Shown in pieces: positions 335 through 36,395 of a stretch of 64,000 nucleotides of DNA (position 1 is the first letter of the stretch; the number at the start of each line of letters is the position of its first letter). The notes under the pieces are model-generated. The model did not search any database. It saw only the letters and a list, made by a program, of their open reading frames with translations, and was not told the DNA's origin. Made by a program: the position numbers and the translations under genes. The stretch is taken from NCBI GenBank assembly GCA_030407005.1, contig JAUDYN010000001.1, positions 4,340,001 to 4,404,000 of the forward strand, in the 5' to 3' direction. This DNA is from Desarmillaria ectypa. Taxonomy: Eukaryota; Basidiomycota; Agaricomycetes; Agaricales; Physalacriaceae.

Positions 335-2585
335 ATGATGTGGGACTTCCCTGACCCTAACAGTCCTCCTTACGACTCACCTTTTGCCTACCATCAACAA
401 CTTCCACCTTTTGGTACACCATGGCCATCGTAAGTACCTGAACAATCCATCATACGTACTATCTATTCACCAAATCCGCAGGTTCCCCCCAGCGTAAGAA
501 ATTTTATAAATTGCAGGTTCGATGTCGATGACACTGATTCATCATATGGACAGAAGTCAGGCGTACTACGTCGAACCGGGAGCGTTTCCTAGCCGCTCAA
601 TAGGTCATGCTTCCGGAGTTTCTCCCGATGACTCACTTCCCTCGTCTGCCGGATCATACCGTCAGTGAGTATTTTAAGCCATCTTCAGCACATAACGGGC
701 TGACTCCGAGGTCAAGGTCTACGTCCGAGTACGCGTCTATGTCCGTTTATTGAATACTGAGGTTCATTTTTGTAGCATGAACATATCCCCAGACTCACCG
801 AGGGCCTTTTTCATTGAATGGCACCATCACCACCATCACTACAGCAGTAGCAGCCACTCTCTCCCCCGTTCACAATCTAAGGCTCCTGCGGAGATTCACA
901 CCAGCGGCGGCTCTCAGCCTGTGATTAACAATCACAGCAGTCATCATAAACTCCAGCCCATAGTCAAAGCGGTACAGCCCACAGCTCCGGCACAGCGTTT
1001 CCGGTACTCCAAGTGTACTGGGCGCAAGAAGGCACTTTGCGTGAGCGTCCCTTTTTGTGTCGTGTGATCCGTTACTGAAGGCACTTACTTTAGATTGGTA
1101 TCAATTATCGCGGGCAGCGCCACGAACTGCGAGGCTGTATCAATGACGCGAGGCATATTCGAGACTTTTTGATCCGTTGGTATTATCTGTGTTCGTACTT
1201 GTCCGAATGAACTGACTTTGGTGTGTGTTGCAGGCTATTGGAACTATAAGAAAGAGGACATCGTGATGCTTACAGACGATGCTACGAATCCTCGGCAGCG
1301 CCCTACGAGAAGAAATATGATCGACGCTATGCATTGGCTGGTCAAAGACGCGCAGCCCAATGATTCGCTCTTCTTTCATTGTAATAATTACCCGTCATTC
1401 TCGGACGTTTCCTTTCCCTGATCATCATTTTACCGTCCAGATTCGGGACACGGCGGCCAGACCCGTGACAAGGACGGCGATGAAGTTGACGGGTATGATG
1501 AAGGTCTGTCTACCTCTACTGTATTGGCTTCGCAGCGTCCATTGAGGGTACCTATGTTCTAGTCATATTCCCTATTGATTTCAAGCAAAATGGACATATT
1601 GTCGATGATGTGAGTTTCTCTCCGGTGCTTCTGTTTTATTTGTCTGGATTTCTTTTTCCTCCTCTTTGACTAGGAGATGCATGCGATTATGGTCAAGCCC
1701 CTCCCGAGAGGGTGCCGGCTCACGGTATGTCTCCTTTCCCCTCGCTTGGTCTCGATCGCGTGCGGCCCTGACTCAGAGCCTGATTCCGCTAGGCTCTCTT
1801 CGATGTGAGTCCTTCATGGGTGCCTCGCTCCGTTCTTCATTAACTTGTAATTTCACAGTGCTGCCATTCCGGTACAGCTTTAGGTAAGTGTAAGCCAAGT
1901 GAGACCTCGAACCTTTTTAATATCTTTACCTTTTTGTTAGATTTGCCATACGTCGTGAGTATTGTATTTATTGGGCCCCTCTCCATCTTACTTGATCAGT
2001 CGGCTTTCTAGTATGACTGTCATGGTCGAACCAGACGTGAACACGTAACCAAACAATGGAGAGCACGGAAGTCGACTGATGCTGATGTGGTAAGCATCTA
2101 TTGTTCTGGATTCCTTTCGAGTTCCGTTGACGAGACATGTCAGATATCATGGTCCGCGAGTAAGGATGGGCAGACGAGCGCCGATACATTCCAAGGTGGC
2201 GTGGCTGTTGGTGCCATGAGCTACGTGAGCGCCTGTCCTTTCTCTCACCCTAGCACAAGTACCAACCGTCTATAGGCATTTATCTCGTCCCTCATGAAGA
2301 ACAAGGAGCAGTCGTACCAAGGGCTTCTCCACTCTATAAGGTAAGCTTCTCGGTCAGGTTCCTCCCATAATGGTTCTTATCGTCTTTTCTTCTAGGAAGA
2401 TCTTGGAGCCTAAGTATAGTCAAACGCCGCAGATGAGCAGTTCTCATGATATTGTAAGTCTTTTTTTCGTCTCGTGGTTCATTGATCGATAGGCTTATTG
2501 CGTTTGGGTCGGTAGGTCATGACTTCACAATTTATCTTATAACTTTATGATTCTGACTTTGTGACTTTCTCAGACACTTTATTGA
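335..2585 (+). CDS. Type I metacaspase (caspase-like cysteine peptidase), intact, 16 exons
   Basis: Metacaspases are cytosolic Ca2+-dependent Cys peptidases cleaving after Arg/Lys, linked to stress and cell death in fungi. I spliced 16 exons: 335-429, 554-664, 776-1040, 1094-1175, 1234-1380, 1441-1503, 1563-1609, 1674-1724, 1793-1804, 1859-1883, 1941-1954, 2012-2089, 2144-2224, 2276-2340, 2396-2453, 2574-2585. All join in frame with GT-AG borders, giving about 401 residues. Residues 1-150 are a Pro/His/Ser-rich prodomain (MMWDFPDP start, a run of His near exon 3). The p20-like domain begins GRKKALCIGINY. The catalytic His lies in YSGHGGQ (about H237), split by an intron, and the catalytic Cys in DCCHSG (about C293), reached through a 12-nt microexon. 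The C-terminus keeps the family pattern QSYQGLLHSIR, then SSSHDI. The first exon start is inferred from its match in position and motif to the copy at 17885. Upstream exons 1-2 are less certain than the rest. Confidence 0.9.
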
Positions 2586-12351: not shown

Positions 12352-14260
12352 ATGGCAGCAAAATCTACCTTCGCGAAATGGGCGCCTATCTTGTACCTCC
12401 TCATGACAATAACTCAGGCGCTGACCATAAACATCCCTCGTGTGTCTCTCTTTTCTCTTCCAGCAGGTGAGCCCCTTATATTCCGCCACTATTTCAGCTT
12501 TTTTTACTCACAGACATGCACATGTAGCCACATTAATGACACGAATACTTTTCTGACTGCACCTCACCTCACCGACGAATGCAGGATGAGTATCGAGTAT
12601 CAGGATCACGACCACGCAGGCGGCGATTACCTTCATGGTACCCCACTTTGCGAGGTATCTCCTGTCGTTCAGGTAAGAATTATCACTGAACGCTTCACAA
12701 AGTCTGCCTCGTAATAAACAAATCTTGCATCTAGCTAGAACCCAGAACAATGCCGGACGCACGTCTGGCAGACCACATCAGAAATTCCAAACCTTCGGGA
12801 CGGAAGAGGGCACTCTGTGTAAGCGCCTCTTTCTTCATGGAATAATCTAAGTGTCAATGCTGAATATACTTCCCTTAGATCGGTATCAACTACGGCGGTA
12901 AAGTCAACAAACTCCGAGGCTGTATAAAAGATGCCACGGACATTCGCGGCTTCTTGATGCGTAAGTGCCTTTTGCTCTCATTCAATTATGAAAATAGGGT
13001 ACTGGAACACTCCTTTTCTCAGGAAAAGGCTATAATGAGAATGATATCAAAATGCTTACGGAAGAGACGGAAGATAAACCCACGAGAAAGAATATATTGG
13101 ATGCAATGTCCTGGCTTGTTGAGGGAGCCCAGTCGGACGATTCGTTGTTTCTTCATTGTACGCTTCACCGCTTCCTTTGCATTTGTTTCTGATGTTTTCA
13201 CTTTACACTCACACTCTGGGCACGGAAGCCAGATCGCCGACAAGAATGGTGACGAGGTCGACGGAAAAGACGAAGGTTTTCATACCGAACTATTTCTATC
13301 CACTGAGCAATCCACTGAGTAAATACTTTTGCAGACATTGAGTGCATCGACTCGTCTATTATTATTGACGATGTAAGTTCATATATCATTCATTCGCCCT
13401 CGGCGCATCGACTCTTTTGCGACTCAGGAAATGCACAACATACTCAAGTCTCTGCCTTCTGGTTGCCGGCTTACGGTACGCTTCTTCGAGCTGCGTGTTT
13501 TTATCAAGTATCTGACACCACCCATATTATGCTAGGCTTTGTTCGACGTAAGGAAATACAAATATCTTATTTCTCCCTGGTTACTTTGATTGCATAAAGC
13601 TGCCACTCCGGGACAGTTTTGGGTAAGCGCATCATGTCCCAATTAAATTGTCCGTTTATTCTATTTTGTTCAGGCTAGATCTACCCTACGTTGTGATTAT
13701 CTCGTCTTTCGGACTCCTCGACGCCTAATCCGATCGGCTTGCTTTAGTATAATTGCCTTGGTCAACACTATTGGGCAACCAAGGCGTTGGTGTCGGATAT
13801 TTTAGCGGATGTGGTAAATGTCGAGATTCATGTTACTATAAGACGACCGATAAGGATTGCAGATATGCTGGTCTGGCGCCAAGGATGACCAGGAAAACGC
13901 CGAAACGCCCCAAGGAGGCATCATGACCTGTGCAAGTGGTTAATATAGTTTGCATTTTGACGCGGGCTCGAATTTCAGTGTAGGCATTCATCGAGTCGCT
14001 AGAGGAGAAACCTGTGCAGTCGTACCAAGAACTTCTCCACTCCATCAGGTCAGCTTTTCCCCCATCCGTGGCCAAAGTTGCTCTTATTTTCTTTTGTTCA
14101 GGATGACGATTTCAACATAAGTGTTATAAACAGATTCTGCAGCTGGGAACTTCTCGTCCAATGGTGAGAATTTCTTTGTGTCATCCATTTACCGAATGAT
14201 TCGAATATTTCCTGGTCGTTTTTGGTGCGCAGAACCCTATGCGGGAGTTTATTTTATGAA
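12352..14260 (+). pseudogene. Metacaspase paralogue, probable pseudogene
   Basis: Exons match the intact copies in order and phase: 12352-12672 (hydrophobic, signal-like start MAAKSTFAKWAPILYLLMTI), 12735-12818 (ends GRKRALC), 12879-12960 (IGINYGGKVNKLRGCIKDA), 13023-13157 (KGYNENDIKMLTEE...), then the His box (tSGHGSQIADKNGDEVDG) at about 13217. The canonical acceptor before the His box is lost: the expected CAG is CAC, and no AG lies in that intron. At the Cys box (about 13612-13634) only 23 nt of the usual 25 remain, so the CHSGT reading is out of frame. The last long exon hits TAA soon after RMTIST (about 14115). Later exons (YNCLGQHYWATK, ICWSGAKDD, AFIESLEEKPVQSYQELLHS) are still well preserved. 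Translation beyond the second p20 exon is unlikely unless a non-canonical AC acceptor is used. Confidence 0.75.
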
Positions 14261-17884: not shown

Positions 17885-20095
17885 ATGATATGGGATTTAT
17901 CTGGAAGTAGAAGGGATTCCTGGGATTCATATTTCGAGATGCAATTTCCATTGTGAGTGCCAGAATTTATCTGGATAATGTATGCTTATCCTTTCACTAA
18001 TTGCGCAGGCTTCAGACTGTGTGAGTTATCTTCAGTTCTCAGGTGTAATGCCGATGACCATCCAAATAACGTTCTCCTCTCCCTCTGGTGCTGTTCGCAT
18101 TATAGCAAACTCTACAGCTTTCAACAACAGACGTTCTCCATAACTAGGTCATCAGATTACTACCTGTACTACGACCCTGTACATCTTTTGTGTTCTATCG
18201 AGTAAGTTGTTCAGACTGGTTTCGACATACTTCCTCCTTACCCTGAAACAGTTCAAGCTCCCAGTATGCACGCGATCATATGCTTGGATGAGGCTAACCC
18301 AGTTATTGAAGCTCTGTTCTGACGCGTAGCGGGTCGAAGGCTTTCTCCTACTACCCACGTCCACTTCATCGTCATACTAAGTATAACCACCTTTATGGTG
18401 GTGGTGGTCGCCATCACAATCACTCAGAAAGCCGACACCATCTGGAAATCGTTGCTAGTTTCTCTCAGCTGTCTCCCAAATACGCGTACCTCGTTGGTAA
18501 GAAAAGCCGGAGAGATGTCACATTCGATTCGATGCTATATGCGCCTATAGTAAGATCCTATCCTCCAGACGGATACCCAGAACAGACTGGGCGCAAGAAG
18601 GCACTTTGTGTGAATGGACTTTTCCTCTTCTTGTGATTGATGCGAGAGCGCTAATCAACTATAACGTAGATTGGTATCAACTATTTGGAGTATCCCCGAG
18701 TGCGCGCACAGCTCTCGGGCTGTATCAAAGACGCCCTACGGCTCAACGACTTCTTATTAAGTATATGTTGTTCATCAGGACTGATAGCAGCATGATAATG
18801 ACCAACTCTATTCCTCAGACCACTGGCGCTCAGGTGTCCAGAGTGCGATAGAGATCAAGATTCTCAAAGATGATAGCAAGAAAGCCGACCAAATACCTAC
18901 CAGGAACAACATTATCAAGGCTATGCGCTGGCTTGTCAAGGATGCACTTCCAGGCGATTCGTTAGTCTTTCATTGTACGGCTTCGCTTTCCCTCTTCAGT
19001 TGTGTTCTGAGTATTTCCCTTACTTCCAGATTCTGGACATGGCGGTCAGATACTAGACACGAACGGTGATGAGGACGATGGATATGATGAAGGTATCCTC
19101 TTTGTAATGTTTAGTTTGTCGAAACATTCTCTGATATCCTTTCTTTAGTCATTTACCCTGTTGATGGTGGTTATATTCTGGATGATGTAAGTGTCGTTCC
19201 TATTACTATGCGTATTTCCCGGTTTCGATTTTTCTCTCTCAAAGGACATGCACGACATGATGGTCAAGCCCCTCCCTCCGGGCTGCCGGCTTATGGTACG
19301 TCTCACAAACGACTACACCCCGAGTATGTACCTGACTAGTGCATTATTGTATCAGGCGATTTTTGATGCAAGTTTCGAATACACGCTAAGTTTACGTTTC
19401 ACGCTAACCTTGGATTTGACAGTGTTGTAGTTCAGGGAGCGCTTTGGGTAAGCTATTCCAAGTTAGCTATCAGTTATTCCTGGTTCTTATTGCACTTGCT
19501 TTATGCCAGATCTACCTTATGTCTGGGTACCGCATTTTCGATGTACTTTGCAGCTGCACCTGATAGTCCTGTGTGTTACAGCGCAAATCCAGAGGTTTAT
19601 CCCCAGACGGATCCGTCACGAAGAAGTGGATTGGGCGTAAATCGACCTCCGCCGACGTTGTAAGTCTCTTGTATCTAGTTTTTCTCTCCGTAAGGAAGTG
19701 CATGGGGACACATAGATATCCTTTTCCAGCGCCAAAGATAACCGGACAAGCAAGGACACACCGCAAGGAGGTGCCATGACCAACGTGAGTTCCTAACATC
19801 CATGGCATAAGAGGCTTATCCCTGTAAAGGCCTTCATATCATCCCTTAGGTATAGCCGATATCCGACATACAAAGAGCTTTTCTACTCAATCAGGTTGAG
19901 TTTCGGGCTATTGATTGTGGAGAATCGTATTCAATCTCTCTTTTGTTGTTCAGGGATATCATGAAGGAGCAGTACGGGCAGACACCGCAAATATGTTGTT
20001 CCGATTATATCGTGAGTCTATGTCCCACCGTTTTTCCTGTCGTGCGCTTCGTTAACATCTGATCATAGGACACAGACCGGACGTTCCTTCTGTGA
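17885..20095 (+). CDS. Type I metacaspase with altered Cys box (DCCSSG), intact, 16 exons
   Basis: I assembled exons 17885-17952, 18148-18201, 18330-18609, 18670-18760, 18819-18974, 19030-19092, 19149-19186, 19245-19295, 19355-19366, 19423-19447, 19510-19526, 19582-19659, 19716-19784, 19830-19894, 19954-20011, 20069-20095. All phases agree, giving about 383 residues. The prodomain starts MIWDLSGSRRDSW and contains a Gly/His run (YGGGGRHHNHSES). The p20-like domain starts GRKKALCIGINYLEYP. The His box is intact (YSGHGGQILD, about H220). The Cys box is DCCSSGSAL (about C273): the nucleophile is kept, but the usual His after it is Ser. The microexon AIFD ends at a GC donor (gcaagt). Compared with the 335 copy, p20 has a 3-codon insertion after IGINY and a 3-codon deletion after the acidic loop. 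It lies between the arms of the inverted repeat. Confidence 0.88.
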
Positions 20096-33759: not shown

Positions 33760-36395
33760 ATGGGCAACAAAGCTAAAGCAAAATCAAATGCAAATGCAAC
33801 AATTCGTCCAACCTTGGTCGTCCTCAAGGGCTTGCAAGCCGCAGGAGAGCTAGCGCCGCTCCCTTATATTAAAGGCATCGCAGCATTGGCGATAACCGTT
33901 CTCGAAATTATCGATGTGTGTCTGCGTACTCACTTTTCGGAGTCAAATATAACAATGGATCGTGGTAGAATACTTCCACCAATAACAGGGATATTCAAGG
34001 ACTGGCCGAACGTATCGGGGATACCGTGATAGCAGTAAAGGATGCCGCAGTCACATATTCTCGAGTCGGTACTGGAAACGGGTCAGCTATCGAACAAGTG
34101 TGCACAAATTTCATACGGTACGCCTCCACCTGCTTACCGTCTTTCTCATCTAATGCAGAGAGAGCAGTTGCTTGGAAGATATCATCCATGATTTGCGGGA
34201 GATGGAAAGGAACAACACTAGTAAAAGCAGGATTACGCAGTTTCTCACGACCTCCAACGTTCGCGATGAGATTAACGAGTTCGTGCGGCAAATCGACAAC
34301 CTGCAGAGAAACTTCGACGTATGTGTGCAGCCACCTCATCTTATGGACTCGATTTTCACCTATTCATTAAGACAAAGAATATCCTCAGCATTTGTGCAAA
34401 CAATGAAGTGTCTGACAGCTACCTCAGGGCGCTTGAACACGGTATGACAAAGCTTCGCGCGGAGCATTCAAACATGCATCGTACCTTGGCACACTTACTG
34501 GTCTCGCATAATGAACTCAGAACTCAGGTCTCTAATCAGGGTAGGTTCCCGGAATCTATGAACCGTAATGCAAAGAAAGATAGAGGAGAGGTACGTCAGT
34601 TTCTGTGATTGCTCACTCTGAAATAATACATGCAAAAATTTCCCTAGGCAACCGTCATAGTCCAGAGCACCTTTGACTCTCGGTACATGGCATACTATCT
34701 ACTCCTGGAGACCCTCTCTGCGACCCTCTTCTGGACCGTGTCGTGTTTTACCAACCTCCTCCCGACACCGTCAATCTTGTACCGTCAAAGGGCCAGAATG
34801 CAGCACTATCTTTCTCCTTCGATACCTATCTCAACTCCGGGAAAATTTGTCCAAAGATTCAAGCATCGGCATGGTCCCCGCAGAAAGGCACTCTGCGTGA
34901 GCTTATCACTCGACCGCTGGCTTCATGCTATAGATATTCAATAAACGTCTCGCATAGATTGGTATCAACTATTTCGGACAACCTTGTCAGCTTCGAGGAT
35001 GCATCAACGATGCGTGGAAATTTCGCGAGTTCTTAATATGTCAGTCTCCTTCGCGTACCCTGCTCTCATTGTATGTGGTTAATTATTTCTGTTGTCTAGG
35101 TTACTGCGGCTACAAGGCCTGGGATATTGCCATGCTTACAGATGATAGTCCGGATCCGCGTCAGCACGCAACGAGGAAGAACATCATCGACGCTATGAAT
35201 TGGCTTGCAAACGATGCTCAGCCGGGAGATACACTGTTCTTTTTCTGTATGCTCTTCCGATACCCGAGGCTTATCTTCTTGACTGAGATTTCACACCCTT
35301 AGATGCCGGGAGTGGTGTACAAGTCTGTACTGAGGATGGTAACAGGGTTGATGGTTACGACATAGGTTTCGCTATTCATTGACGCACGTCCATGGAGGAC
35401 TTTATTGACTTCTTTTACTTTCCCAGCCATTTTACCGGTCGATTACAATCAGCATGGTTATATTCTTGATCAAGTGAATTCCCCATACTACGTACCGTTC
35501 TACCGATATTGAATCCTTGTTCCGGTCCAGGAAATATACCAGATTATAGTTAAGCCTCTACCTCCGGGTTGCCGACTTACAGTATGTGACTTCTTCATAG
35601 CGTTTTGGTTTCAAGTAAATTAATGAGGTCTCACTGTTAGGCTCTGCTTCCTGTAAGAATGCAGATGTCTTATTGTGTTCTACGTTGACAGTTATCTCAA
35701 CAGTGCTGCTATTCCGAGGCAGCATTGGGTTAGTATACTCAATTACAAATTCGACAGCATCCTTGAATGACTGTGTTCCTTTTAGATCTGCCCTATGTTG
35801 TGAGATCTGCACACTTTGTACGCCTTGTTGACGTGACGGACCTTCATTTGCTCCAGTATGACTGTGACACCCAACTCTTTAGTCCACGCCCATCGATATC
35901 GTCCAAGTCCACTGCCGCTGACGTCGTAAGTATCTCCTTTTGGGACTTCCCCAGTTACCAGGAGTGCTCAGAAAGACATAGGTGATTTGGTCCGGGTGCA
36001 AGGAGACGGCTATTAAGGAGACGGTCATAGGAGGCGTGGCTGTCAGCGCCTTTAACTATGTAAGCACTTATCGCTACTAACCATTTATACCCTGACGCGT
36101 TCTCAAACGAATTATAGGAATTTCTATCATCTCTCAAGATAAACCCGAAACAGTCTTGCAGAGAGCTCCTTCATTCATTGAGGTAAGTTCAATCTTCTCG
36201 TGACAATTCGTACAACCGGAGGCGGTAACATCTCTACCCATCAGTAATCTTCTGGCGGCCAGAGATGATGGCGAGAAGCCTCAGCTGGCTACTAATTCTT
36301 GGCATATAGTGGGTATCACCTTGCACTGTCTTTTATTTGATCTATTGCTTTATGGCCTTCATTATCAGGACCCTGATTTGCCGGCTACCTTGTGA
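33760..36395 (+). CDS. Helical (MLKL-NTD/HeLo-like) domain fused to catalytically degenerate metacaspase domain, 18 exons
   Basis: I spliced 33760-33915, 33969-34117, 34159-34318, 34372-34590, 34648-34896, 34958-35039, 35100-35246, 35303-35365, 35427-35473, 35531-35581, 35641-35652, 35704-35728, 35786-35799, 35857-35925, 35982-36059, 36118-36182, 36245-36308, 36369-36395. Every junction is GT-AG and in phase; the product is about 558 residues. Residues 1-230 are helical and match in pattern the N-terminal adaptor seen on mushroom NLRs and kinases (YIKGIAALAITVLEIID, RDIQGLAERIGDTVIAVKDA, LEDIIHDLREMERN, RQIDNLQRNFD). Residues 252-275 are hydrophobic (YYLLLETLSATLFWTVSC). From RRKALCIGINYFG the metacaspase fold follows with the same exon phases as the 335 copy. 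The catalytic His box is YAGSGVQ (His replaced by Ser, about residue 391). The Cys box is PCCYSE (Cys kept, neighbours lost). It has an excellent Kozak context (ccaccATGG). No stop or frameshift. Likely a pseudo-protease or signalling scaffold (inference). Confidence 0.85.

Follow-up and report, generated by a model that had tools for sequence, protein, structure and literature searches.

A helical module joined to a metacaspase-like domain without its catalytic His in Desarmillaria ectypa and its relatives

Among the caspase-fold proteins that lack dyad residues or activity, c-FLIP(L) is a pseudo-caspase regulator and T. brucei MCA4 is reportedly a pseudopeptidase, and we know of none that carries the N-terminal module treated here. 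Pseudo-orthocaspases are dead caspase-fold proteins as well, as presented in parts of PMC6426788 and PMC7889975. The gene analyzed in this work, from Desarmillaria ectypa, likewise encodes a caspase fold without its full dyad, and differs from c-FLIP, which has death-effector domains and metazoan partners. It lies at 33760-36395 on the forward strand of a window of 64,000 nucleotides (contig 1, 4340001-4404000 of the 40.6 Mb genome), and fuses an N-terminal helical module, through a linker with a hydrophobic helix, to a metacaspase-like domain that has lost its catalytic His.

With type I metacaspases such as S. cerevisiae Yca1 and C. glabrata Mca1 the fusion shares the caspase-like domain and the retained Cys, but the His, one calcium-site Asp and the Asp that precedes the Cys box are replaced, and the usual prodomain is swapped for the helical module and the hydrophobic linker. 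The N-termini of fungal NOD-like receptors (NLRs) known as BaMLKL, in the main text of PMC9815663, resemble the module in helix order, and the module is also found before NACHT in the same genome; the fusion module differs in having no Pfam match and in being joined to a pseudo-metacaspase, and the terms caspase, C14 and metacaspase do not occur in that main text. MLKL, as outlined in passages of PMC12881547, is also built of an N-terminal helical bundle, linker helices and a C-terminal pseudo-enzyme, the latter being a pseudokinase there and a metacaspase fold (pseudo-protease) here, a likeness of plan and not of bundle homology. Passages of the same paper describe fungal CHAT-protease NLRs that control gasdermins, where again a caspase-type domain is linked to a pore-forming death effector; there the protease sits within the receptor and the gasdermin is a separate target, whereas the present protein joins a dead metacaspase to the module itself.

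In the titles and abstract openings of the literature on metacaspases, pseudocaspases, MLKL/HeLo and Armillaria, a survey that leaves subscription papers mostly uncovered, the architecture is undescribed; it is a variation built from components of known kinds. Because a key catalytic residue is lost, the metacaspase part probably controls rather than cuts, and we give an even chance to the fusion being a pseudo-protease regulator, in which the pseudo-metacaspase would act as control or sensor over the bundle. With regard to the partners of metacaspases in mushroom cell death, the conserved fusion is a physical link between an NLR-type N-terminal module and a dead metacaspase, and offers a testable pair (the pseudo-metacaspase and its dyad-bearing paralogs) together with a testable candidate cleavage site.

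One gene across the module-caspase junction

The initial annotation had proposed one fused gene of 18 canonical, in-phase exons, and the exon model, backed from ATG to stop by the NCBI protein P0001 and by orthologs, agrees with it almost to the base: 17 GT-AG introns of 41-62 nt are removed to leave a single 558-aa frame. The best database protein is P0001 itself, from D. ectypa and named caspase domain-containing protein, which reaches 597 aa because its model keeps two introns that the 18-exon model removes; the one at 35800-35856 is spliced out in the P0002-P0005 models, joining LPYV to YDxDT. The acceptor used before 34159 for exon 3 yields FIRESSCLE where orthologs have FxRCLE, and by eye a start at 34168, favoured by the orthologs, would give FIRCLE and a protein of 555 aa.

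Exons 1-3 (33760-34318, as all features here on the forward strand) encode the helical module proper, P0001 residues 1-155, with the predicted helices hG, h1, h2, h3, hM and h4. Exon 4 (34372-34590) adds further helices and coil and a conserved dibasic K-[KR] stretch (K223-K224 of P0001), and the first part of exon 5 (34648-34878) encodes the linker, whose conserved hydrophobic helix YYLLLETLSATLFWTVSCFTN is predicted at residues 239-264, with a borderline Kyte-Doolittle hydropathy of 1.2-1.5 (on approximate scales). N-myristoylation was weighed by eye and dropped.

Intron 4 (34591-34647) holds an in-frame TGA, read as VRQFL and stop, hence it needs to be spliced to join the two halves. Identity between D. 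ectypa and A. borealis is 75% in the coil and 66% in the linker on either side of it. Two adjacent genes mis-joined are ruled out by this ortholog-conserved linker and junction, and a split would need intron 4, with its stop, to be left unspliced. Nor is the fusion due to chance, as the A. borealis protein P0002 matches 100% of the query with an E value of 1.2e-253; the fused gene is found in related Armillaria and Desarmillaria. Left unspliced, the intron would yield a bundle-only protein of ~230 residues, a possible alternative product.

Catalytic losses and divergence of the metacaspase-like domain

The remainder of exon 5 through exon 18 (34879-36395) encodes the metacaspase-like domain, which matches PF00656 (E value 7.1e-22, obtained on a 17-exon draft). 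The predicted structure has the caspase/metacaspase fold that marks type I metacaspases, with 37-44% identity to 7qp0, 7qp1, 4f6o and 4f6p in structural alignments of the predicted fold, and c-FLIP(L) comes up at Foldseek ranks 39 and 41 (E values 0.1 and 0.25). The His box AGSG, the Cys box PCCYSE and the loss of the catalytic His, all claimed in the initial annotation, are borne out: the boxes line up with the SGHGG and D[SC]CHSG that relatives carry, the codon at the His position (35311-35313) is AGT, Ser, and the catalytic Cys, the second of PCCYSE, is retained (35707-35709). The catalytic columns were aligned for the best 120 of 978 matches, minus four longer than 700 aa; in these 116 sequences the His is found in 109, the seven exceptions being the fusion proteins, and His and Cys are both present in 108. 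The fusion orthologs carry various residues instead, S, S, N and R in P0001-P0004. The depositors' models of P0005 and P0007 misframe the His exon, and their codon, read back by eye as RGT or RGC, would encode Ser or Gly rather than His; P0009 is unreadable at this column. In Armillaria solidipes, P0026 keeps the His and has Ser for the catalytic Cys (DCSHSG), a possible other pseudo-metacaspase.

That the protein is still a protease, its Cys paired with another base or with a His supplied by the substrate, would fit the Cys being kept in P0001-P0005, the predicted fold and the presence in D. ectypa of three of the four calcium-site Asp (columns 184, 200, 201 and 231, mapped by eye from the positions in the T. 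brucei MCA2 structure). We regard it as highly improbable: P0002, P0003 and P0004 each keep one of these four Asp, the D269-D275 stretch is altered or gapped in all of P0001-P0004, and the His, Asp 201 and Asp 222 are missing together in all four. The last of these, the Asp before the Cys box, which we take to be an S1 pocket residue, is replaced by P, S, S and F, respectively.

The changes extend well beyond the active site. Among 106 near-invariant metacaspase columns P0001 keeps 71, P0002 70, P0003 53 (with 14 gaps) and P0004 70, whereas the 108 sequences with an intact dyad keep a median of 99%. In 28 of the 106, every one of the four orthologs shows a change or a gap, which rules out a loss confined to the active site and makes the catalytic loss part of a wider divergence. 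In a tree of 52 caspase domains the six fusion orthologs group together (100/100) on a stem 0.8 changes per site long, their end branches measuring 0.05-0.23 (0.54 for P0007). This group is placed inside an Armillaria/Desarmillaria/Guyanagaster clade (98/91), and its sister, at a moderate 93/75, is the clade to which the 777-2542 gene belongs. In our reading of these sequences, the fusion caspase would have undergone one burst of fast change and evolved more slowly since, its dyad-bearing relatives being still better conserved.

The long stem and the eroded columns are also what a fused gene in decay, with catalysis lost and the sequence drifting toward a pseudogene, would leave, and models that seem broken, truncated or misannotated occur in several Armillaria species (P0005, P0007, P0009, P0121, P0127 and P0128 among the copies). 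Yet the eighteen exons of D. ectypa are clean, A. borealis P0002 is intact, and at least two of the broken models, P0005 and P0007 with their misframed His exon, look like annotation errors. Conservation within the protein also argues against drift, p20 being more conserved than the bundle in D. ectypa versus A. borealis (77% against 68%, with 73% for the p10 part) and versus A. fumosa, and we consider decay unlikely. A rule that the bundle is always more variable than the caspase was tried and rejected, as it holds for those two species and fails for D. tabescens. Several of these observations weigh against a regulator: besides the defective copies, p20 falls below the bundle versus D. tabescens P0003 (70% against 81%, with an incomplete P0003 p20 model; p10 part 76%) and versus the faulty models P0005, P0007 and P0009, and two D. 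ectypa-Armillaria pairs from the dyad-bearing neighbour clade are far better conserved (89% for P0012 versus P0011, 91% versus P0015).

The A. ostoyae protein P0009 (ARMOST_18643) has the same bundle and linker, and its caspase groups with the 18.5-20.1 kb metacaspase (100/99) on a branch of 1.09. If its possibly faulty gene model holds, it would be a second fusion, the module having met metacaspases twice. Judged by number, it is perhaps a neighbour of ARMOST_18631, an A. ostoyae metacaspase that is up-regulated under Trichoderma attack, as given in parts of PMC10269595.

The helical module and the proposed role of the fusion

The module was placed by its occurrence before NACHT domains. Ten NACHT places of the D. 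ectypa genome (six above the family cut-off) were fetched with their upstream DNA, and at two of them, L034 and L038, a module profile built without NLR rows shows module exons preceding NACHT on the same strand, with E values of 0.001 at L034 and, colinear, 0.0018 and 0.022 at L038. The scores of 15.2, 14.4 and 10.9 bits compare with 9.8 bits for the best of 60 shuffles. An earlier profile gave 14.6 and 12.3 bits for the first exons at the same loci and only 8.2 bits for the second exon of L038, below its maximum of 9.1 in 100 shuffles, and had no match in 1243 segments of other loci. Both NACHT domains are well supported (E values 4.4e-9 and 2.2e-6), and on these grounds we take the module to be an NLR-type N-terminal domain, as initially annotated. 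The external names of two homologs, cut as they are, point the same way ('Fungal N-terminal d' for P0007, 'Fungal STAND N-terminal Goodb' for P0129).

Kinship with kinase N-termini, claimed along with that to NLRs, is likely and stands in part. A P0129 query found four other module places in the genome, and at two of them the module is followed by kinase-like sequence: HPNFVQLFRVC at L029 (C12:4164500-4169500), with no Pfam kinase support, and HPNIPQLFGVC at L032 (C29:2517800-2522800), with a weak PF07714 match (E value 0.022). When L029-L032 were scanned against Pfam in their sense frames, neither a kinase nor a NACHT domain came up at an E value of 0.01. Both places are candidates for an MLKL-like architecture within D. 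ectypa itself. In database searches, which covered candidates sharing words, residues 1-300 retrieved only seven proteins, all of the fusion set; the module is found there in proteins of Armillaria and Desarmillaria, in four short proteins that lack a name or a label, and in a Crucibulum protein at 28% identity.

Helices are predicted at residues 10-31, 35-53, 59-85, 91-119, 124-131 and 134-153 of P0001, and at 4-23, 27-49, 53-73, 79-106, 112-116 and 119-140 of the module homolog P0129, both with middling confidence. Both bundles have the hG-h1-h2-h3-hM-h4 order published for basidiomycotal MLKL-likes, some of which score just under Pfam thresholds (main text of PMC9815663). The likeness to MLKL/HeLo proposed in the initial annotation found no sequence match beyond this order, and further points here weigh against the regulator. 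HeLo/Goodbye-group Pfam profiles (such as PF17109 and PF17111) give no match in hmmscan up to an E value of 10, searches of Pfam, NCBIfam and PDB sequences link the module to none of the MLKL/HeLo families, and no MLKL chain is present among the PDB matches listed. Confidence is limited, with a predicted local distance difference test (pLDDT) of 57-82 for the bundle in the full-length model and, for P0129, a mean pLDDT of 61.7 and a predicted template modelling score of 0.41; a structure search with this weak bundle model has no MLKL among the matches listed, helical bundles being generic. To these are added the weak or missing kinase support at L032 and L029, and the K-[KR] pair, which reads KE in the truncated relative P0121.

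These results would also suit an adaptor without a role in cell death, whose module oligomerises or docks on NLRs and kinases bearing the same module, the pseudo-metacaspase being a binding scaffold. A module common to NLR and kinase-like loci would fit such homotypic docking, and the link to MLKL/HeLo is neither found in sequence nor confident in structure. The conserved hydrophobic helix beside the module, borderline as its hydropathy is, and the helix order point instead to membranes, yet are compatible with docking, and we rate the adaptor as possible though somewhat doubtful. For the pseudo-protease regulator, which had been suggested from the start, the fusion, the dead dyad and the NLR kinship speak in favour, and the missing profile match to MLKL/HeLo does not.

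As a regulator, the protein could have arisen when an Armillaria/Desarmillaria ancestor joined an NLR/kinase-type helical module, via the hydrophobic linker helix, to a metacaspase copy. While its predicted fold was kept, this copy would then have lost its catalytic His along with the Asp that precedes the Cys box and some of its calcium site. Modelled on the MLKL pseudokinase and the c-FLIP pseudo-caspase, the pseudo-metacaspase might restrain the bundle within the molecule and/or bind an active metacaspase paralog; restraint, release and partner binding are proposed by analogy with MLKL and c-FLIP. Cleavage by active metacaspases at the conserved K-[KR], which precedes the linker, may release the bundle; the site is suggested by their preference for Lys/Arg, after which they cut (parts of PMC12914765). 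A bolder version by analogy, which we find doubtful, is that in honey fungi a dead metacaspase may take the place of the MLKL pseudokinase, as an independently evolved executioner or switch that would restrain a membrane-acting bundle until an active metacaspase binds it or cuts K-[KR]; if true, protease and pore-type death pathways would be linked within one protein.

Metacaspases around the fusion gene

Active metacaspases had been placed next to the fusion. Dyad-bearing ones do occur in the window but are not adjacent, lying 31 kb and 14 kb away. Pfam scans for neighbour genes covered 28.7-33.7 and 36.4-41.4 kb in all six frames, and 20.5-28.5 kb in the three forward ones, with no match at an E value of 0.001. 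This says little about the neighbours, as short exons evade such scans and a separate PF00656 search likewise listed no place in the window, in spite of its several metacaspase genes. The gene at 777-2542 (forward strand, protein P0012) has an intact dyad (SGHGG, DCCHSG) and, by eye, a 12-nt exon encoding ALFD where the fusion gene has its 12-nt exon 11 (35641-35652, ALLP). In the caspase part, P0012 and the D. ectypa protein P0014 have 247 of 248 residues in common, and one more metacaspase place that lies close to the window (L018, G000:C1:4307657-4307958, reverse strand) may be P0014. The metacaspase at 18544-20095 (forward; start approximate, likely further upstream) pairs SGHGG with an unusual Cys box, CCSSG, whose exon may be preceded by a GC donor. 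Another metacaspase gene at 12786-14079 (forward) has an intact His box, HSGHGS, and by eye a Cys box out of frame with canonical splice sites, and is possibly a pseudogene.
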